Shown here in pieces: positions 37,231 through 51,410 of a stretch of 64,000 bases of DNA; position 1 is the stretch's first letter, and the number at the start of each line of letters is the position of its first letter. This DNA comes from Kappaphycus alvarezii (Eukaryota; Rhodophyta; Florideophyceae; Gigartinales; Solieriaceae), in assembly GCA_002205965.3 (NCBI GenBank), contig NADL03000886.1, positions 1 through 64,000 of the forward strand. Reading direction: 5' to 3'. Under the pieces are notes generated by a model. It did not search any database. It saw nothing but the letters and a program-made list of their open reading frames with translations, and had not been told where the DNA came from. Position numbers and translations under genes: made by a program.

Positions 37231-40200
37231 CTAAGCATCGCGCAGATCGCCAAGTCCCAGAAACCTCACACATTTATTGAACGAAAGTCGTCCAAGAGGC
37301 TTCGTTAGTATATCTGCTGGCATTTCGGAAGACGGTACACGGAAGAGGGAAACGATATTGCGATGGATAGCATCTCTGACAAAGTGGTATGAGATATCGA
37401 TATGCTTGTTACGCCGGTTGACCCCCTCGTTGCCTGCAAAGGATATAGTTCCTGTATTATCACAACCGATTGTAACAGTACCATCTTCTGATTTTCCCAA
37501 TGCATCTGCCAGAAGGCATCTTAGCCAGGCGGCTTCTTTGCAGGCATCACAAAGCGCGATGTACTCTGCTTCGCAGGTAGACTTTGCAACAACCGTTTGC
37601 CTCCTCGACGACCAGCTGACGGCTCCACCACAAAGCTTGAATACATAGCCGCTGGTGGACTTTCTTGAGTTCAAGCAGCCACCCCAGTCCGCATCACTAA
37701 AGCCTTCGAGGTACTCCACTGAGAGATTTCCGTTTAGGACAACACCAGTTGAGAGTGTTCCTTTGATGAACCTCAAAACCCTTTTCGCGGCCTGCCAGTG
37801 GTCCTCGCGAGGCTTCTCACAGTGTTGAGACAGTTTTCCAACGGCGTAGGCTAAATCTGGACGAGAACCAACCATCAGGAACATCAGACAGCCGATGATC
37901 TGTCGATACGGGACATCGCAGTACGGGCTTGTCGAAGACTCGGGGTGGAATCCCTGTTCCATTGGTGTAGTCACGGAATTACAACTGAACATTCCAAAAC
38001 GTTTCAGTACGGATTCGGCATACGCCTTCTGCGATATACAGACTAGCTTGGACGACCTTTTCCTACTAATTTCAAGCCCTATGCACTTTTTCGCCTCTCC
38101 CAGGTCTTTCATCTCAAACCTTTTATTTAATTCCGCTTTCATCCAGGCCACGGCGGTTATATCACTACCGGCGAGCAGCAAGTCATCCACATAAAGGGCA
38201 ATGAGCATTATGCTGTCATTCGATATGTTTGTGTACAAGCACGCGTCACTTCTCGTCGTCTTAAACCCAAGCCCATTAATCAAGAAGTCGTCAATCTTTT
38301 TGTGCCATTGACGACTCGCTTGTTTAAGGCCATAAATAGCCTTGAGGAGTTTGCAAACATGGTTTGGTTTGGAAGGGTCGACGCATCCTTCCGGTTGTTC
38401 CATGTAAATATCCTCCTCTAATTCTCCATTTAGAAACGCGGTAACCACGTCCATTTGGTGGAGCTCTAAGTCAAAATGGGCAACAATAGCTAGTAGCAAT
38501 CGAATTGTCGTGAATTTGATTACCGGGGCGAAAGTCTCTGAGTAATCAACTCCTTCAATCTGCTGGAAACCTCTTGCGACTAGGCGACCCTTTCCTTGCT
38601 GAATAAGGTGGCCCTGATCATCTGGAATATCTTTAACGGTGAAAACCCAGCGCGATGAGAGGATGTTAGAGGCTTGTGAGCGCGGAACCAGCGTCCAAGT
38701 CTGGTTTTTGCGTTGGGATTTTAACTCTTTGTCAACTGCTTTCTGCCAGAAATCTGGTTGCGTCCCACTCATCGCTTCCTTGAACGAGTCTGGTACCGGA
38801 ACATCCTCATTAGACGTGCTGAGTAAATTAGTTCCTAAGAGGCCCTTCCACCATTGTCTTGGTGGGCGACGTGATCGACCTGATCTGCGAAGTGGTACAT
38901 TGCTAGGTCCATCTCCGTCTGCACCACTTGTATGCTCTGGTTCCAAGCTCGCATCCGGGGGCTCTGGGTTCATATTTGGATTTAGAACGGGCTCATTTTG
39001 ACCTCCCAATGACTCAGAGTTGCCATTTTCACCGATATTTGCCATTAAAGTATCGGGGTCAGTTTCGTCAGCAACGCTCACATCCTCTGGCTCAAAATTT
39101 TCGTCATTTTGATGCGATATATTGTCGTCAACCGAACAAGGCCCTCGCCTGGACTCATCAAACTGCACATTTCGTGAAATAACTACGCGATTCAGTTCGT
39201 CATCCCATACCTTATAGGCCTTCGTTCCGGCTGGGTATCCAAGAAACATTCCTTTCACTGCACGTTCATCAAGTTTCTGCACCTCATGGGCATGCAGTTT
39301 GTACCAGCATTGGCAGCCAAATACCCTCAAGTGAGACACATCTGGTTTATCCTTCATCCACAAGTGATGAGGCGTAATGGAACTTCCCAAGGCTCTGGTT
39401 GTTACACGATTCCGCACATACACGGCATTGTCTAGGGCTTCAGCCCAAAATGACTTTGGAACCTGCATGTGGGACAGCATAGACCGAACCAGATCTATCA
39501 ATGTACGGTTGAACCGTTCTGCGACGCCATTTTGTTCAGGCGTGTAAGCGGCGGTCGTTTGATGAACCGTTCCTTGTGAGGATAAGAAGGATTGGAACTG
39601 CGAGGAAAGATACTCCCCTCCACGATCTGAACGAAACACTTTCACTCGCTGACCGGTATGCGTAAGGGCATAATTGGCAAACTTCTTATAGAACTCGAAA
39701 GTTTCATCTTTACTTTTCATCGGATAGACAACGCTCCAGTTGGAGTAATCATCGATGAACGTGACAAAGTATCTCGCACCACCTAATGACTGTGTTTGGA
39801 GTGGGCCACAGACGTCCGAATGGACTAAGTCTAGCAGCTGCTTTGCCCTACCTCCTGAGCGATGTTTGGGAATTACAGCACGAGTTGCTTTTCCTACCAC
39901 ACAAGCATCGCATTTCACGGAATCACAGTCAGAAGATGAGCCAGTATCTTTGGTATCATTTGAAGAAGAAAGATGAAGTCCACTTACCACGTTCTTGCGA
40001 GACATAGACAAGATTCCTTGAGTATGAACGTGAGCAAGTCTTTCGTGCCACGTCTTCAAGGAGGCTTTGTGAGCCGAATGAGTCATATCACACGTATCAA
40101 GCACGTAGAGCTCTCCTTTACTTGTCGCGGTTGCCACAGTACAGTCATTTTTCTTTACAGTACACTTGTCACGAACAAACTGAACATCAAGTCCATTGTC

Positions 40201-41337
40201 GACCATCTGGCGTACTGAAATTAGAGAAAAGGCAAAACTGGGAACGTGTAGCACATTGCTGAGCTTACAAGATTTTTCAATGCCGTTCACTGATAGCATC
40301 AAATGAATGCTCCCGACTCCAGCCACAATCGCACAAGCCTTGGTTCCCATCTCAACGCGGCTGTTCGAGACCTCACGGTAGTCTGTAAAGAGGCTTTTGT
40401 CAAACGTCATGTGCGCGGAGCACCCGGAATCTATAAGCCATGTGTTAGAGGTTATTTTAACGTTAGACTTATCCGCTTTGTTCACCAGACAAATATACTC
40501 CACCTCATTCACTTCCGAGCCATCCTTTTCTTGAGCGATCATTGCCGTTGGCTTCTGTAATTGCCTCCGCTGAAATCGTTCGGGTGGAGAAGGTCGCTTT
40601 CCATTAACATCCTTTCCCCAGCAACGGGAGGCGGTGTGTCCGGTGTGACCACAATTAGTGCACGTCAAGGAAGACTGGCGCCTTCCTTCAAAAACATTGC
40701 CAATAAGGGCGGCACTTGAAGTCATCTGTCGCCTGGACGACTTCATTGAAGCTCGTTGTTCCTCTTGAAGTAGACGACTTTTGACATACTCCACTCCAAA
40801 GGAGTTGTCTTCAGATCCAAGAGCGTCCAGAGCAACAATGAGGCTGTGAAAACGCGGTGGAAGGCCGTTAAGCACTGCCATAGCCATCTCTTTGTCATCG
40901 ATAACGACCCCCATGGACTTCAAACGAGCCGCCAGGTGTCTCACACGTCCGATATACGGAAGCACCTTCTCATTTTCTAGCATACTGACAGTGTAAAACT
41001 CTCTACGAGCAGCCAACTTGTTCAGCAGCGTATGTCGCTCAAACACCTCTAGAATAGCATCCCACATACCCTTGGCAGTAACAGCATCTCTTACATGGTC
41101 CAAATGGTCATCAGAAAGAGACAGCCCTATGATTGCTCTGGCTTTTCGATCTCCCTGCTTCCATGTCCTGTACGTTGAAGAATTTTCATCAGCAGGGACG
41201 GTATCATCTGTTATGTACTGTTCTACATCTCGCAGTGCCAAAAGTAGCTGTATTTTCTGCTTCCACACATAAAAATTCGTATCCGTCAGCTTCTCTATCT
41301 TCATTGACCCTCCTCCTTGATCTTCTCCGCTACTCAT
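37231..41337 (-). CDS. gag-pol: B gag-pol polyprotein, uninterrupted (1368 aa)
   Basis: The ATG at 41337 begins MSSGEDQGGGSMKIEKL, equivalent to the gag start of the other families. The frame stays open about 34 codons further upstream but without an ATG. Approximate positions: gag core 1-220; CCHC knuckle CTNCGHTGHTASRC near 225-238; protease WLIDSGCSAHMTFD near 299; integrase WHERLAH near 428, CDAC near 474, catalytic D/D/E in HSDVCGP (503), RSDRGGEY (567) and TPEQNGVAER (598); RT MDVVTAFLNGE (957) and LYVDDLLLAG (1044); RNase H SDADWGG (1212), CEAEYIALC (1247), CDNTGT (1290), KHIDISYHF (1308). The length is normal for copia and every key residue is present. It is the only polyprotein in the window that could be functional as written. 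Gag and pol share one frame, so a splice or processing step would have to set their ratio. Confidence 0.93.
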   Translation of the reverse strand: MSSGEDQGGGSMKIEKLTDTNFYVWKQKIQLLLALRDVEQYITDDTVPADENSSTYRTWKQGDRKARAIIGLSLSDDHLDHVRDAVTAKGMWDAILEVFERHTLLNKLAARREFYTVSMLENEKVLPYIGRVRHLAARLKSMGVVIDDKEMAMAVLNGLPPRFHSLIVALDALGSEDNSFGVEYVKSRLLQEEQRASMKSSRRQMTSSAALIGNVFEGRRQSSLTCTNCGHTGHTASRCWGKDVNGKRPSPPERFQRRQLQKPTAMIAQEKDGSEVNEVEYICLVNKADKSNVKITSNTWLIDSGCSAHMTFDKSLFTDYREVSNSRVEMGTKACAIVAGVGSIHLMLSVNGIEKSCKLSNVLHVPSFAFSLISVRQMVDNGLDVQFVRDKCTVKKNDCTVATATSKGELYVLDTCDMTHSAHKASLKTWHERLAHVHTQGILSMSRKNVVSGLHLSSSNDTKDTGSSSDCDSVKCDACVVGKATRAVIPKHRSGGRAKQLLDLVHSDVCGPLQTQSLGGARYFVTFIDDYSNWSVVYPMKSKDETFEFYKKFANYALTHTGQRVKVFRSDRGGEYLSSQFQSFLSSQGTVHQTTAAYTPEQNGVAERFNRTLIDLVRSMLSHMQVPKSFWAEALDNAVYVRNRVTTRALGSSITPHHLWMKDKPDVSHLRVFGCQCWYKLHAHEVQKLDERAVKGMFLGYPAGTKAYKVWDDELNRVVISRNVQFDESRRGPCSVDDNISHQNDENFEPEDVSVADETDPDTLMANIGENGNSESLGGQNEPVLNPNMNPEPPDASLEPEHTSGADGDGPSNVPLRRSGRSRRPPRQWWKGLLGTNLLSTSNEDVPVPDSFKEAMSGTQPDFWQKAVDKELKSQRKNQTWTLVPRSQASNILSSRWVFTVKDIPDDQGHLIQQGKGRLVARGFQQIEGVDYSETFAPVIKFTTIRLLLAIVAHFDLELHQMDVVTAFLNGELEEDIYMEQPEGCVDPSKPNHVCKLLKAIYGLKQASRQWHKKIDDFLINGLGFKTTRSDACLYTNISNDSIMLIALYVDDLLLAGSDITAVAWMKAELNKRFEMKDLGEAKKCIGLEISRKRSSKLVCISQKAYAESVLKRFGMFSCNSVTTPMEQGFHPESSTSPYCDVPYRQIIGCLMFLMVGSRPDLAYAVGKLSQHCEKPREDHWQAAKRVLRFIKGTLSTGVVLNGNLSVEYLEGFSDADWGGCLNSRKSTSGYVFKLCGGAVSWSSRRQTVVAKSTCEAEYIALCDACKEAAWLRCLLADALGKSEDGTVTIGCDNTGTISFAGNEGVNRRNKHIDISYHFVRDAIHRNIVSLFRVPSSEMPADILTKPLGRLSFNKCVRFLGLGDLRDA

Positions 41338-41349
41338 TGCAAATAGATT

Positions 41350-41429
41350 AGAGGTGCTTGTGTTCTGTTCGAAGATCCCAAACCGGGGACCGATAGTCCC
41401 TTGCAATGGCAAGCCCACCTCTATAAGAA
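41350..41429 (-). ncRNA. Conserved structured leader element before gag (B)
   Basis: It has the same order as in C: AGAGGTG...CTTG-CCATTG-CAAG, GGGAC-TATCG-GTCCC, then CACCTCT. Differences from C fall mostly in the first loop. The gag frame is also open through this region here, so a coding role cannot be excluded for B alone. Confidence 0.6.
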
Positions 41430-41500
41430 CACAGCACACGAAACTCTAAGCTAAATGCAAAGGCCGAGCACTCGCTTTTAACCAAAGTATAGGATCCCTT

Positions 41501-42164
41501 TTACTGCTGAGACAAAACTACTTTCAAGTGATCTTTCCCGTTCTCGTGGCGTTTCAGAACTTCGTGGGAGTCGAACACTCTATCACAAACAGTACACCTA
41601 GGGGTCTCCTTTTTGTTGGCTACTCTAGTATTATGACCCTTAGAATGTACGTGATCGTAGAATGTCTTAGCACTATTGCAGCTAATCTGGCAGGTCTTGC
41701 AGTACCTTTGTGCCTCGGCGGAACTCGCTTCTTCGCCTTCAGCTCCCTCTTCGCGACTCGATCGGCAAGCGCTTTGGCTTTCTTGGCCGAGAGTCGTTGA
41801 ATTTTTCTAATCGGCTTCTGTGGAGGTACTGACCTGCGGGGGATCCTATATCCTTCCTGGGCGGCAGGAAGGGCGAGCGTCGGCGGCGGTGGTGTTGTCG
41901 GTTCAATAACCTCGATCCTCTCCACACTTGACCTCCTCCCTGACGGTAAACCTCTGACCGATGGAGCCCTGGGCACTCGCGGCACCAGGGCTAATTCCGA
42001 GTCTAGCACAACCCCGCAGAAGCAGGCACAGATAGTGGAAGTGATCGTCAGTAACAGCTTTATGGAATTGCAAGTCTTTAGACCAACCAAAAGGTGCAAA
42101 GAGAATCACTTCGATGTGCAAAGAAATGGAATTATTCAAAACACTTACCAGGAACGTGAGACAT
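41501..42164 (-). pseudogene. B accessory zinc-finger gene, one-base frameshift
   Basis: Exon 1 is 42149-42164 (ATG plus four codons plus one base), the intron 42003-42148 (GTAAGT...GTGCTAG, 146 nt) and exon 2 41501-42002. The N-terminal part keeps DSELALVPRVPRA, as in C. A Lys/Arg-rich stretch follows (QRLSAKKAKALADRVAKREL), then two C-x2-C-x12-H-x5-H fingers. One base is missing near 41707 just before the first finger. First-exon length, intron phase and finger spacing all match family C despite the divergence elsewhere, which supports a real conserved gene. Confidence 0.72.
42003..42148 (-). other. Intron in the B zinc-finger gene
   Basis: The donor G|GTAAGTG is stronger than that in C (GTAAGC); the acceptor TGTGCTAG|AC is identical. 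A possible upstream 46-nt leader intron is 42175-42220 (CCC|GTAAGTCG to TTTGTCTCAG). Confidence 0.6.
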
Positions 42165-42248: not shown

Positions 42249-42262
42249 CTGGGCCCATAACC
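42249..42262 (-). other. Second primer-binding site, adjoining the B leader
   Basis: GGTTATGGGCCCAG follows the end (TTCTACA) of the 80-bp miniature LTR and precedes the normal B leader (TTCAACGC...). Confidence 0.82.
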
Positions 42263-42342
42263 TGTAGAAAACGTTAACCACTGAGCCACATGCGCTGGCT
42301 CTCTTGTGCCACTGAGCGGACCACAACATATATAGACCAACA
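42263..42342 (-). repeat. 80-bp LTR of a TRIM-like element, with a Pol III A-box
   Basis: Minus-strand ends TGTTGG...TTCTACA. It is preceded by a polypurine tract (GAGCGAGGGGGG) and followed by a PBS, exactly the context of a copia LTR. It has a TATA-like CTATATATG near its start. TGGCTCAGTGG (42278-42288) matches the tRNA A-box consensus TRGCNNAGYNGG. Confidence 0.7.
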
Positions 42343-42446
42343 CCCCCCTCGCTCAGAGGCACTACCACAAGGTGCTTGTCGAGGGGTTCAGGGCTTACAC
42401 AGAGCATTACAGTAACGCTCATAACAAATATCCAACTCAGTGCACC

Positions 42447-42470
42447 CAGCGGGGCTCGAACCCGCGACCA
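42447..42470 (-). promoter_or_regulatory. tRNA-like T-arm with perfect B-box
   Basis: The minus strand reads GCGGG-TTCGAGC-CCCGC, a full 5-bp T-stem with a canonical T-loop, and contains GGTTCGAGCC (B-box consensus GGTTCGANNCC). TGGGTGC, a possible acceptor 3' strand, follows it. No complete tRNA can be folded in this copy, because the 5' domain lies downstream in the LTR. Confidence 0.7.
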
Positions 42471-42485
42471 CAGCGGCAACGTCAA

Positions 42486-42499
42486 CTGGGCCCATAACC
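42486..42499 (-). other. Primer-binding site directly after the B 5' LTR
   Basis: GGTTATGGGCCCAG follows the B LTR end CATCTTCA. It leads into the TRIM-like internal region rather than the B leader. Confidence 0.85.
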
Positions 42500-44020
42500 T
42501 GAAGATGAGTTGCGATGGGGAAGGCTGGTGGGAGAGAGGATGAAGCTGCGGGCTTGGCTGCCCAGAATTTACTCGGTACTCTAAAATTCTGACCTTAAGT
42601 ACAACCTGCGACTACTCTCTAACTCACTGCGTCCATTAACTAAAACATAGAAACTGAACCATTTGGACAGATAGAAACATATTGGCCCAGTAATAACGTT
42701 CAATTGGGGCATTTTTAGAACTGCTTCCAAAGTTGTCAAATTCGTGTAAGACAGTTTGGCCCAATACACACATCAATACGGCACCTTATTTTGTAAACTC
42801 ATCCAAATCGAATTCCCTTGTGCCAAAATAACGGACTCAACCCGTCATACATATTATGGAATCACACAACTGATTTTGGATGCAGCCCGCAAACCGTAAT
42901 CATAATTAGAAACCTCATACGTATTATAGAATCACATAACTGATTTTGGATGCAGCCGGCAAACCGTAATCATAATTAGAAACCTCATACGTATTATAGA
43001 ATCACATAACTGATTTCGGATGCAGCCGGACTAACCATAATCATAACTAGAAACCTCATACGTATTATAGAATCACATAACTGATTTTGGATGCAGCTGG
43101 CAAACCGTAATCATAATTAGAAACCTCATACGTATTATAGAATCGCATAACTGATTTTGGATGCAGCCGGCAAACCGTAATCATAATTAGAAACCTCATA
43201 CGTATTATAGAATCACATAACTGATTTCGGATGCAGCCGGACTAACCATAATCATAACTAGAAACCTCATACGTATTATAGAATCACATAACTGATTTTG
43301 GATGCAGCCGGCGGATACAGTAGGCATTCTACTGTACCTGGAGAGACCGGAGCGGTGTAGTCATGATAGTATTTTCACAACCAAATCCCACTGTATGAAC
43401 GCAAGTGCAGTAAGAAGTACAGTACGAGGTACAGTAAGAAGCACAGTACGAGGTACAGTACGAAACTTGACACCAGTACAGTATGTGTACACCACTGCAC
43501 CAAAGGTTTCTACTCTTTGCTGTACCACGTGTACATCACATACACAACTGCCACCACGTACACGTGTACATACCTTACCTCGACATACCTCTTATACAGT
43601 ATACTCCTCACCCACTTACAGTGCCCTACCCTATGTAAAATGACCCCATAAACACCATTCTGCCCTCTAAAATAGCTCAAAGTCAACCCTTACACCTCTA
43701 CAGCCATTACACGTGTACATCACCAGCCAATAGAATTGCAGCATTTGACCTATCAGCCAATAGGATTAAAGCAGGCAATTCTTAGCCTAGGCATTATGGG
43801 CCAAGTTCCACTTGTCAACAATCATGCAAAATTTGCATTTATCGTCGACCCCTCGAAAATGGCTTTTTGTCCCCGGCAACTTTGTTTTTCGGGTAAATTT
43901 GGCATATATTATCCTTCAGAACCACATGTGTCCAACGTGTACAGATATACAGCTTCCCAACCTCCGTGCGAGACGTCTAGTCAAGGCGATGGGCGTGTGA
44001 TCGTCTCACAAAATCACAAA
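42500..44020 (-). repeat. B 5' LTR, with seven 70-bp repeats
   Basis: About 1520 bp; the plus-strand start is TGAAGATGAG. It holds seven GGATGCAG repeat units (about 42870-43315) and the shared motif TTTGTCCCCGGCAACTTT near 43864. The inner boundary is exact; the outer one (AAATCACAAA) meets C8. Confidence 0.86.
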
Positions 44021-44021
44021 C

Positions 44022-45368
44022 AACATCAACATTCCGAACTCCTTTAAAGAGGCGATCGGTGGACCACAACCAAAGTTCTGGCAGAAAGCTATTGATAAGG
44101 AGCTAGAGTCCCAACGCAAAAACAAAATCTGGGCACTAGTGCCACGATCGGAAGGTGCCAATATTCTAACTTCTCGCTGGGTATTTACTGTGAAGGACAT
44201 GCCGGACGTTAACGGCACGTTGACTCAAAAGGGAAAAGGTCGCCTGGTTGTGCGGGGCTTTCAACAAATTGAGGGGATTGGTTACTCAGAGACTTTTGCG
44301 CCGGTGATCAAATTCACAACGATTCGATTGTTGTTGGCGATTGTAGCCCACTTCGGTTTAGAGCTTCATCAAATGGACGTTGTCACGGCATTTCTGAACG
44401 TTGACTTAGAAGAGGATATTTATATGGAGCAGCCTGAAGGTAGCGTTGACTCTTCCGGGCCCAATCATGTTTGCAAACTTCTCAAGGCTATCTACGGTCT
44501 TAAGCAAGCGAGTCGACAATGGCACAAAAAGATAGACGATTTCCTTATTCACACGCTTGGCTTCAAGACTACGAGAAGTGACGCCTGTCTATATACAAAC
44601 ATATCAGAAAAAGGCGTTATGCTGATTGCCCTATATGTGGATGACTTGCTTCTTGCGGGAAGTGACCTGAAAGCCGTGACCTGGATGAAAGGTGAACTGA
44701 ACAAGAGATTTGAGATGAAAGATTTAGGCGAGGCCAAAAAGTCCATTGGGCTTGAAATAAATAGAAAAGGGGTCCCTAGACGGATCTGTATCTCGCAGAC
44801 AGAGTATGCCAAGTCCATTTTGAAACGTTTTGGTATGGCCAGTTGCAATCCCGTGCGGACTCCGATGGAACAAGGATTACACCCTGAGACGTCAACTAGC
44901 CCGTATTGCGATGTACCATATCGACAGATCATTGGCTGCTTAATGTTTCTTATGGTAGGGTCACGTCCAGATCTTGCATATGTGGTGGGAAAACTGTCCC
45001 AACACTGTGAGAACCCTCGCGAGGACCACTGGCAAGCAGCCAAACGAGTTCTGAGATATATCAAAGGAACGCTGTCACTAGGTGTAGTTCTAGATGGAAA
45101 TCTCCCATTGAAAACTCTAGAGGGCTTCAGCGATGCAGACTGGGGTGGTTGCTTGGACTCGAGAAAGTCCACCAGTGGATATGTGTTCAAACTGTGTGGG
45201 GAGCTATTAGTTGGTCGTCTAGGAGACAAACGGTCGTTGCGAAATCCACATGCGAAGCGGAGTATATTGCACTGTGTTAGGCTTGCAAGGAGGCAGCTTG
45301 GCTCAGGTTCCTTCTTGCAGACGCATTGGGAAAGTCGAAAGACAGCACAGTTACAATCAGGTCTGATA
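44022..45368 (+). pseudogene. pol: C8: C-family RT-RNase H fragment
   Basis: It begins at INIPNSFKEAIGGPQPKFW just before RT and is open from about 44025 through RT (HQMDVVTAFLNVD, LYVDDLLLAG) into RNase H (SDADWGGCLDSRKSTSGY). There one G is lost near 45200 (GTGGGGAGC), ending the correct frame. It stops at ...TCTGATA, where the LTR of E begins. It carries private substitutions (a Gly for Asp in AHFGLELH, NVD for NGD in the RT block) and is the most diverged C copy. Confidence 0.88.
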
Positions 45369-48125: not shown

Positions 48126-49583
48126 CTAAGCATCGTGCAGCTCTCCGAGGCCTAGAGATTTTATGCATTTTATGAATAGAATGCGACCAAGAGGCTTGGT
48201 GAGTATATCTGCTGGCATATCTGTAGAAGGTACGTGAAACAGTGAAACAATCTTTCGAGTCACAGCATCTCGGACAAAATGATATGATATGTCAATGTGC
48301 TTATTTCGCCTGTTCACTCCTTCGTTACCCGCAAACGCTATTGTACCAGCATTATCACACCCGATTGTAACTGTGCTGTCTTTCGACTTTCCCAATGCGT
48401 CTGCAAGAAGGCACCTGAGCCAAGCTGCCTCTTTGCAAGCCTCACACAGTGCAATATACTCCGCTTCGCATGTGGATTTCGCAACGACCGTTTGTCTCCT
48501 AGATGACCAACTAATAGCTCCCCCACACAGTTTGAACACATATCCACTGGTGGACTTTCTCGAGTCCAAGCAACCACCCCAGTCTGCATCGCTGAAGCCC
48601 TCTAGAGTTTGCACTGGGAGATTTCCATCTAGAACTACACCTAGTGAGAGCGTTCCTTTGATATATCTCAGAACTCGTTTGGCTGCTTGCCAGTGGTCCT
48701 CGCGAGGGTTCTCACAGTGTTGGGACAGTTTTCCCACCACATATGCAAGATCTGGACGTGACCCTACCATAAGAAACATTAAGCAGCCAATGATCTGTCG
48801 ATATGGTACATCGCAATACGGGCTAGTTGACATCTCAGGGTGTAATCCTTGTTCCATCGGAGTCCTCACGGGATTGCAACTGGCCATACCAAAACGTTTC
48901 AAAATGGACTTGGCATACTCTGTCTGCGAGATATAGATCCGTCTAGGGACCCTTTTTCTACTTATTTCAAGCCCAATGCACTTTTTGGCCTCGCCTAAAT
49001 CTTTCATCTCAAATCTCTTGTTCAGTTCACCTTTCATCCAGGTCACGGCTTTCAGGTCACTTCCCGCAAGAAGCAAGTCATCCACATATAGGGCAATCAG
49101 CATAACGCCTTTTTCTGATATGTTTGTATATAGACAGGCGTCACTTCTCGTAGTCTTGAAGCCAAGCGTGTGAATAAGGAAATCGTCAATCTTTTTGTGC
49201 CATTGTCGACTCGCTTGCTTAAGACCATAGATAGCCTTGAGAAGTTTGCAAACATGATTGGGCCTGGAAGAGTCAACGATACCTTCAGGCTGCTCCATAT
49301 AAATATCCTCTTCTAAGTCACCGTTCAGAAAGGCCGTGACCACGTCCATTTGATGAAGCTCTAAATCGAAGTGGGCTACAATCGCCAACAACAATCGAAT
49401 CGTTGTAAATTTGATCACCGGCGCAAAAGTCTCTGAGTAATCAATCCCCTCAATTTGTTGAAAGCCCCGCACAACCAGGCGACCTTTTCCCTTTTGAGTC
49501 AACGTGCCGTTATCGTCCGGCATGTCCTTTACAGTAAATACCCAGCGAGAAGTTAGAATATTGGCACCTTCCGATCGTGGCAC
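48126..49583 (-). CDS. pol: C5 pol: RT and RNase H, open frame of 485 codons
   Basis: This uninterrupted segment runs from PRSEGANILTSRWVFTVKD through GFQQIEG, HQMDVVTAFLNGD, GLKQASRQWHKK, LYVDDLLLAG, YRQIIGCLMFL, SDADWGG, CEAEYIALC, CDNAGTIAF and KHIDISYHFVRDA to the stop. It has no ATG of its own because it is the C-terminal half of a polyprotein; one-base losses near 49595 and 49647 separate it from the upstream part. All catalytic residues are present, so the break could be recent or a sequencing error. Confidence 0.88.
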   Translation of the reverse strand: MPRSEGANILTSRWVFTVKDMPDDNGTLTQKGKGRLVVRGFQQIEGIDYSETFAPVIKFTTIRLLLAIVAHFDLELHQMDVVTAFLNGDLEEDIYMEQPEGIVDSSRPNHVCKLLKAIYGLKQASRQWHKKIDDFLIHTLGFKTTRSDACLYTNISEKGVMLIALYVDDLLLAGSDLKAVTWMKGELNKRFEMKDLGEAKKCIGLEISRKRVPRRIYISQTEYAKSILKRFGMASCNPVRTPMEQGLHPEMSTSPYCDVPYRQIIGCLMFLMVGSRPDLAYVVGKLSQHCENPREDHWQAAKRVLRYIKGTLSLGVVLDGNLPVQTLEGFSDADWGGCLDSRKSTSGYVFKLCGGAISWSSRRQTVVAKSTCEAEYIALCEACKEAAWLRCLLADALGKSKDSTVTIGCDNAGTIAFAGNEGVNRRNKHIDISYHFVRDAVTRKIVSLFHVPSTDMPADILTKPLGRILFIKCIKSLGLGELHDA

Positions 49584-51410
49584 TAGTGCCCAGGTTTGTT
49601 TTTGCGTTGGGACTCTAGCTCCTTATCAATCGCTTTCTGCCAGAACTTGGTTGTGGTCCACCCATCGCCTCTTTAAAGGAGTTCGGTATGTTGATGTCGC
49701 CACAGGAAGGTGTGAGTAAGCTGGTTCCCACCAGGCCTGTCCACCACTGTCGGGGTGGGCGTCGTGAACGAGTGGAGCGGCGAGGTTCCACATCGCCGGG
49801 ACCAGCATCTTGCTCACCACTCACTTCTTCTGGTTGCAAAGTCTCATTAGTTGAGTCGGGCTCAATACCTTGACTTTGAAAGTTCTCAACCTCCGCCGGT
49901 GACCCTGTTTCAATGCCATGTTCATTATCACCATTAGATGTTTCAGACTCAATTTCGTCAGTATCGGTCGCCTCCTCTGGGTCAACGTCCACGTCATTAT
50001 CATCGGAAAAATGTTCATCGTAAGAGCAAGCCCCTGGTCTCGACTCATCGAACTGCACATCCCTGGAAATAACAATGCGATGTAATTGTCATCCCAAATT
50101 TTGTAGGCCTTAGTTCCCGGCGGATACCCAACAAACATTCCCGTTGTTGCGCGGTCGTCAAGTTTACGCACCTCATTACCAGGCACCTTGTACCAGCATT
50201 GACATCCAAACACACGTAGGTGAGATACATCGGGCTTTTTCTTCATCCATAGGTGAAATGGAGTAACGAGACCACCCAAAGCTCTTGTCGTGACACGATT
50301 GCGAACGTAAACTGCGTTATCAGAGCTTCAGCCCAAAAGCTTTCGGAACCTTCATATGGGACAGCATAGACCTGACGAGATCAATCAGGGTACGATTGAG
50401 CCGTTCTGCCACACCATTCTGTTCAGGTGTGTATGCAGCGGTCGTTTGATGAACAGTTCCTTGTGACGATAGAAAGGATTGGAACTCTGAAGAAAGATAC
50501 TCTCCACCACGATCAGATCGAAGCACTTTCACGCGTTGACCAGTGTGTGTGAAGGCATATTGGGCAAACTTCTGATAAAAATGGAACGTTTCATCTTTAC
50601 TCTTCATCGGATAGACAACACTCCAGTTTGAGTGGTCATCGATAAAAGTGACAAAGTATCTAGCACCACCTACTGACTGTACTTGGAGTGGGCCGCAGAC
50701 GTCCGAATGGACCAAGTCTAGCAAATGTTTGGCCCTGCCTCCAGAGCGCTGTTTAGGAATCACAGCACGAGTTGCTTTTCCTAACACACACGCATCACAT
50801 GTCACAGATTCACAGTCAGAAGATGAGCTAGCGTCTCTTGTTATATCTGAAGAGGAGATATGAAGTCCACTTACCACGTTCTTACGAGCCATGGACAATA
50901 TTCCTTGAGTGTGAACGTGGGCCAATCTTTCATGCCATGTCTTCAAAGAGGCTTTGTGCGCCGAATGAACCTCGTTACATGTGTCAAGCACATACAGCTC
51001 TCCTCGACTTGTGGCAGTAGCCACGATGCAGTCACTCCTCTTCACAGTGCACTTGTCACGAACGAACTCAACGTCAAATCCATTATCGACCATCTTACGT
51101 ACAGAAATTAGGGAAAAAGCAAAGCTTGGAACGTGCAGCACATTGGTGAGCTTGCATGACTTTTGAACTCCGTTCACTAAAGCGTAATGGGACGGTCCCG
51201 ACTCCAGCTACTACTGCACACGCTTTTGTTCCCATTTCTACGCGGCTGTTTGAGACCTCCCTGTAGTCGGAGAACAGTCTCTTGTCAAATGTCATGTGCG
51301 CGGAGCATCCAGAGTCGATAAGCCAAGTGTTTGAGTTATGTTGATACCAGAGTTATCTACCTTGTTCATCAGACATATGTACTCGACTTCATTAATTTCC
51401 AGATCTTCTT
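49584..51410 (-). pseudogene. pol: C5 pol: protease, integrase and linker, frameshifted
   Basis: The protease motif is split by a one-base loss near 51335 and another near 51181. The integrase frame 51177-50320 holds WHERLAHVHTQG, CDACVLGKATR, HSDVCGP, RSDRGGEYLS and TPEQNGVAERLNRTL. One base is lost near 50322 and two near 50083. The acidic linker follows in the frame 50058-49615. Confidence 0.9.

Follow-up and report, generated by a model that had tools for sequence, protein, structure and literature searches.

What is a stretch of DNA without a gene, but with the signals of an LTR retrotransposon and both boxes of a tRNA-type promoter, doing in the leader of a Copia element, and could the two boxes work together? 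We analysed the window, by which we mean the whole stretch of 64,000 nucleotides, and searched the host genome (336 Mb in 884 contigs) with a query of 551 bases around the segment. The segment is a fragment of a TRIM, a gene-less LTR retrotransposon about 316 bp long when whole, and lies inside the leader of Copia element B. Every part claimed in the earlier note (PBS, internal region, polypurine tract, 80-bp LTR, second PBS, A-box and B-box) could be located on the minus strand:

42500-44022, minus strand: 5' LTR of Copia element B, in whose leader the TRIM segment lies
42263-42499, minus strand (element sense): TRIM segment, consisting of a PBS, a non-coding internal region with a polypurine tract, and an LTR, followed by a second PBS
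42486-42499, minus strand: PBS1, GGTTATGGGCCCAG, at the joint with the 5' LTR of element B
42343-42499, minus strand: TRIM internal region, 157 bp, non-coding
42452-42462, minus strand: B-box, GGTTCGAGCCC, in a T-arm-like stem 3' of the PBS (internal region), within a T-arm block common to family 2 at 18/19
42441-42448, minus strand: TGGGTGCA, acceptor-stem-like 3' strand of the tRNA-like region, from the cmscan alignments of L006 and L018
42343-42350, minus strand: polypurine tract, GAGGGGGG, in a block common to family 2 at 13/14
42263-42342, minus strand: LTR of the family-1 TRIM, 80 bp, TGTTG...TACA
42289-42295, minus strand: GCGCATG, acceptor-stem-like 5' strand of the tRNA-like region, from the full-length cmscan alignment to RF00005 in the intact copies L006 and L018
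42278-42288, minus strand: A-box, TGGCTCAGTGG, within the LTR near its 3' end, inside a 22/23 block common to family 2
42268-42271, minus strand: TTTT directly before the LTR 3' end, a candidate Pol III terminator when in a 3' LTR
42249-42262, minus strand: PBS2, GGTTATGGGCCCAG, at the downstream joint with element B, 14 nt complementary to the anticodon arm of the initiator tRNA-Met (L090)
37231-41445, minus strand: 1404-codon open frame, stop to stop, of Copia element B

When both strands of the 64-kb window were searched, the strict patterns for box A (TGGC..AGTGG) and box B (GGTTCGA..CC) gave a single match each, and the PBS core occurs eight times. Read in element sense, the window copy has box B first and box A second, and hence no assembled promoter.

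Copies with two 80-bp LTRs and 5-bp target duplications, which the earlier note had proposed to look for in the genome, are present. The family-1 search gave at least 104 matches (40 of 1790 candidates scored), and 39 loci were taken; many of them contain LTR-internal-LTR elements, among them a 316-bp copy with 80-bp LTRs in L014. A second TRIM family, with an LTR of 84 bp, was first met in L057 and is represented by a 323-bp copy in L064. The search with this family gave at least 55 matches (40 of 307 candidates scored), and 20 more loci were taken. Among 38 complete elements or arrays, which are best-scoring matches or chosen variants and not a random sample, the 5-bp target duplication was perfect in 16, agreed at four of five positions in 7 and at three or fewer in 15; chance would give about 0.04 perfect duplications (38/1024). 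L007 repeats L006 and L026 repeats L014, leaving about 36 independent sites with about 15 perfect duplications, and two adjoining copies in L063 have an identical upstream 5-mer. This set leaves out eight entries flagged as duplicates (two of them, L066 and L078, with perfect duplications), matches covering less than 80% of a part, and 16 of the first 39 loci, chimeras or partial copies that have no 80-bp LTR upstream of the internal region. One locus, L011 (C23:712500-719700), is a tandem array in which 28 LTRs alternate with 27 internal units; it carries 24 exact A-boxes and 23 exact B-boxes, and a single 5-bp duplication, GTCGG, bounds the array as a whole.

These elements have the makings of a TRIM: two LTRs, a non-coding body and a total length below about 1 kb (L014 and L064), a PBS and a polypurine tract at the two ends of the internal region, with GAGGGGGG preceding the 3' LTR, and a target duplication of fixed length (5 bp). 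tRNA-derived SINEs, which are moved by LINEs, have a non-coding body preceded by a Pol III promoter with A and B boxes, and are without LTRs, PBS and polypurine tract. The boxes, the non-coding body and a tRNA-like region of 92 nt in the intact copies resemble such a SINE, and its insertion into the Copia leader by another route was the alternative that had been raised at the outset. The TG...CA ends, two LTRs, PBS, polypurine tract and 5-bp duplications mark it as an LTR element, and we regard this alternative as ruled out for all practical purposes.

Both families have box A inside the LTR, 15-19 nt before its end, and box B past the PBS, in the internal region. Placing box B outside the LTR is not a choice of annotation, because the sequence past the 3' LTR is, according to the duplications, target DNA. 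The starts of the two boxes are usually about 44 nt apart in tRNA genes; they are 63 nt apart in family 1 (L014) and 43 nt apart in family 2 (L064). The predicted order, A before B, is thus borne out in intact copies only, and the predicted distance of about 50 nt has to be replaced by these two values. Both the exact A-box (TGGCYYAGTGG) and the exact B-box (GGTTCGANNCC) are kept at 44 of 55 family-1 and 16 of 28 family-2 LTR/internal junctions, counts that cover the scanned loci with array units included and are therefore not independent. With up to three mismatches, a 24-nt A-box pattern had 496 matches in the genome and a 25-nt T-arm pattern 184, the reversed control giving none in either case. 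The host tRNA-Lys(CTT) genes have a T-arm that is almost the same as the one in family 1, and at least 6 of the 184 T-arm matches are ordinary genes of this kind.

The elements could be conventional TRIMs whose LTR drives transcription by Pol II, with the boxes left over from a tRNA gene or SINE captured long ago and telling of ancestry, not of function. TATATA, found close to the 5' end of the family-1 LTR in the window copy, could serve Pol II. Moreover, in 56 distinct LTR and 59 distinct internal sequences of family 1, variation was 0.032 in box B and 0.033 in the rest, with box A somewhat lower at 0.018; 28% of windows were as low as box A and 62% as low as box B. Box positions that are not clearly more conserved than the rest suit the Pol II explanation, and are also what is expected if most copies are dead.

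The comparison between families, with one natural copy each (L014 and L064), provides stronger evidence than that within family 1. As an internal yardstick we used the polypurine tract, a known functional part. Three blocks are shared: 22 of 23 nt around the A-box (E 9e-8), at LTR position 44-66 in both families; 18 of 19 nt in the T-arm (E 2e-5); and 13 of 14 nt at the polypurine tract (E 0.014). The next match has an E of 0.77, and outside these blocks the two copies differ. The longest exact common word is 16, and 200 mononucleotide shuffles of the family-2 unit gave 13 once and otherwise 10 or less. Two families with unlike U3, PBS and internal regions have thus kept the A-box and T-arm blocks at 95-96% identity, against 93% for the polypurine tract (one copy each), and a TATA motif was not seen in the family-2 LTR (read in L064). 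Both points argue against transcription by Pol II with idle boxes, which we consider unlikely. The earlier note had made its case depend on the boxes being conserved among copies, and they are, both as exact boxes at most junctions and as blocks common to two otherwise different families. Judged from their sequences, the boxes are kept while the primer site between them differs across families.

To identify the primer, we searched the host for initiator tRNA-Met genes with a 17-nt pattern, allowing one mismatch. There were 11 matches (control 0), and at the eight loci read ARAGORN called tRNA-Met(CAT) seven times and gave one undetermined call. The family-1 PBS is complementary over 14 nt to the anticodon arm of this host tRNA (L090), and the family-2 PBS, TGGTAGCATCGC, is complementary over 12 nt (9 encoded plus CCA) to its 3' end; each family thus uses its own part of this one tRNA. 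TGGTAGCATCG is present in 18 of the 24 family-2 leaders matched in L060-L079, and L064 itself is one base off.

We also asked how closely the junction resembles a tRNA. In an Rfam covariance scan (cmscan, E up to 5) of 11 loci, 7 of family 1 and 4 of family 2, the RF00005 tRNA model aligned from end to end of the junction at 24.2 bits in L006 and at 20.9 bits in L018, both below the gathering score of 29; a tRNA match was listed in these 2 of the 11 loci only. A weak match to tmRNA, a model of the same clan, was obtained in L014, L015, L027 and L037 (13.1-15.6 bits, with four overlapping lower-scoring matches left out), while the scan listed neither a tRNA nor a tmRNA match in L030 or the four family-2 loci. 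In L006 and L018 the tRNA-like region runs without interruption across the LTR end, from the acceptor 5' strand to the acceptor 3' strand; L018 differs by one base in GCGCATG. The 92-nt junction of L014 was given a stable fold by RNAfold, and this fold is not a cloverleaf. A canonical tRNA gene was considered as well and rejected: ARAGORN found none in the window and, at default settings, made just two calls among the 39 loci, both in the L011 array. Its permissive setting with introns produced many scattered calls and was set aside.

Helenus TRIMs have a tRNA-like sequence, boxes A and B included, within the LTR (Kojima 2024, PMC10886601). The elements studied here may descend from a TRIM of that type in which priming moved upstream inside the tRNA-like sequence, so that the LTR was shortened and box B was left internal. 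The split would then be a side effect, and the promoter might or might not still be functional. A tRNA-like region contiguous across the LTR end (L006 and L018) and two families priming with different parts of one tRNA would both fit such a descent, but none of the loci read showed a member whose LTR contains both boxes, and we put it forward only tentatively, as a possibility we somewhat doubt. It is an origin story compatible with the explanation we prefer, and the likelihoods of the two overlap.

A run of at least four Ts, the candidate Pol III terminator, lies close to the 3' end of the LTR at 39 of 55 family-1 and 27 of 28 family-2 junctions, leaving 16 family-1 junction LTRs without such a run, and in the family-1 unit of L014 the LTR-end run is the only one of this length. 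Internal regions contain a T-run of four or more in 3 of 82 cases in family 1 and in 29 of 30 in family 2. The latter count is at odds with family 2 being a clean Pol III template, unless Pol III of this host reads through four Ts.

Taking these results together, we infer Pol III transcription of the elements from the boxes, their spacing, their conservation between families and the T-runs at the LTR ends. The explanation that we favour, and think probable as a whole, is that of a TRIM whose promoter spans LTR, PBS and leader, which depends on Copia for its mobilisation, and whose copy in the window became a chimera by way of the PBS. TFIIIC would bind box A of the 5' LTR jointly with box B of the leader, and Pol III would start some 10-20 nt upstream of box A. 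The transcript would run through the PBS, internal region and polypurine tract into the 3' LTR and stop at the T-run near its 3' end, giving a terminal repeat R of about 30-35 nt. This T-run is also present in the 5' LTR, between the start and box B, and the first one must be read through. Copia proteins would act in trans, packaging the RNA and integrating the DNA, and initiator tRNA-Met would be the primer, through its anticodon arm in family 1 and its 3' end in family 2. Since duplication as LTR ends at the PBS, box A is the only box in 3' LTRs and solo LTRs; a full promoter would be found only where an LTR precedes a leader, the units of tandem arrays included. The narrower proposal, that the LTR boundary divides a working Pol III promoter, with the PBS between its boxes, in two families that keep the boxes and differ in the PBS, and that reverse transcription duplicates box A only and makes the promoter one-ended, so that 3' and solo LTRs are silent and LTR-leader joints, those of intact array units too, are active, is one towards which we lean slightly.

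LTR elements normally hold their whole promoter in the LTR, and it is thereby copied to both ends. If the proposal is right, the complete promoter is present here only at the 5' end, and DNA synthesis begins midway through it. An LTR element could then do without a duplicated promoter, and the arrangement would offer a means of keeping 3' LTRs and solo LTRs from being transcribed. The two families, with the same boxes and different primer sites, would also offer a natural comparison for studying how primer use changes.

The window copy itself is a Copia/TRIM chimera. We found the element-B chimera in three places (the window, L098 and L099), with identical 5' flanks in all three. The 3' flanks of L098 and L099 are identical, and there the chimera is bounded by the duplication GATGT, and so was integrated as one unit; in the window its 3' LTR end is disrupted. 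A single integration as a chimera, duplicated later together with its surroundings, is most likely. That the joint falls at the shared PBS supports Copia as the partner and suggests that the chimera probably arose by template switching between co-packaged RNAs.

Other chimeras have a similar form. In the 16 of the first 39 loci without an upstream 80-bp LTR, the sequence found in its place stops at the PBS, and two such upstream sequences recur, each in five or six loci; we take these to be LTR ends of other elements, as demonstrated for element B only. In the chimera L047 the LTR comes from another element. The LTR-like sequence of this partner had 25 matches, among them four pairs 4.0-4.6 kb apart, and no B-box was found in the seven relatives read beside L047's own locus; the idea that it represents a third TRIM family was dropped on these two grounds. 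In L109 the leader of the partner element contains the same 14-nt PBS, and in L105 a near match to it. Four of the seven (L104, L105, L106 and L109) have TGGCCAAGTGG, an A-box-like word (TGGCNNAGTGG), in the LTR shortly 5' of its 3' end. Separately, L032, L055 and L057 are chimeras between family-1 and family-2 TRIMs, and in L032 the two LTR types meet at or beside the shared A-box block.

We then compared these elements with known ones. The nearest known kind is Helenus/TRIMp3, the latter being a name proposed for TRIMs with Pol III promoters; the boxes, their spacing and the T-runs are consistent with membership of TRIMp3, going by the parts of Kojima 2024 (PMC10886601) that we draw on, in which Pol III use in Helenus itself is not validated. 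Helenus elements are 311-1263 bp long and, like those described here, are gene-less TRIMs with tRNA-like boxes A and B, a link to Copia and 5-bp duplications. The likeness is closest to fungal Helenus, in size, PBS, duplications and Copia link: its PBS matches the anticodon loop of tRNA-iMet, as in family 1 (anticodon arm), and some members use the tRNA 3' end, as in family 2 (PMC10886601). In Helenus, as far as this source goes, both boxes are inside the LTR, whereas here, in both families, the LTR ends between them and box B stands behind the PBS. The earlier note had called a tRNA-type promoter across this boundary a different design. This holds for the split arrangement, which was not found in a literature search and which alone is new, with the proviso that the Helenus supplements could contain such a family; it does not hold for TRIMs with tRNA promoters as such, which had already been described (PMC10886601).

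Cassandra is likewise a TRIM with an internal Pol III promoter (here a predicted one) and tandem arrays of LTR-internal units, but its promoter is 5S-type and lies within the LTR, in contrast to the split, tRNA-type arrangement considered here (PMC7215508, PMC10886601). The longest array here has 27 internal units (L011), compared with 12 internal domains detected in Cassandra by PCR, a figure set by the limit of that method (PMC7215508). Ajax resembles our elements as a TRIM with a Pol III-type promoter and 5-bp duplications, and differs in that its promoter is 5S-derived and inside the LTR (PMC10886601). Cassandra was rejected as an identity for the segment: no Rfam family reached its gathering score in the window, and there was no 5S match (E up to 5) in the 11 element loci.

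Several other features of the window and assembly were recorded. A minisatellite with 70-71-bp spacing occupies 42775-43336, inside the 5' LTR of element B, and LTR length differs by several hundred bases among element-B copies. The leader of element B, between PBS and main frame, also contains an open frame (41501-41806, minus strand) in which two C2H2 zinc-finger-like motifs were recognised by eye. Two inverted arms of 1083 nt (44119-45201 and 48521-49603), 98% complementary, both lie within Copia-like frames. Contig C581 (L080 and L100-L102) carries a bacterial LSU rRNA with tRNA-Ile and tRNA-Ala upstream and bacterial-looking frames, which means that the assembly includes bacterial sequence. 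Searches for the protein families PF04082 and PF00016 gave no match; the control for PF00016 responded in 5 of 14 cases and that for PF04082 in none, so that the PF04082 result carries no information. Finally, a QueC-like frame (PF06508, 7e-17 in L081) lies near a tRNA-Lys gene at L081:2664-3071 and in L082.
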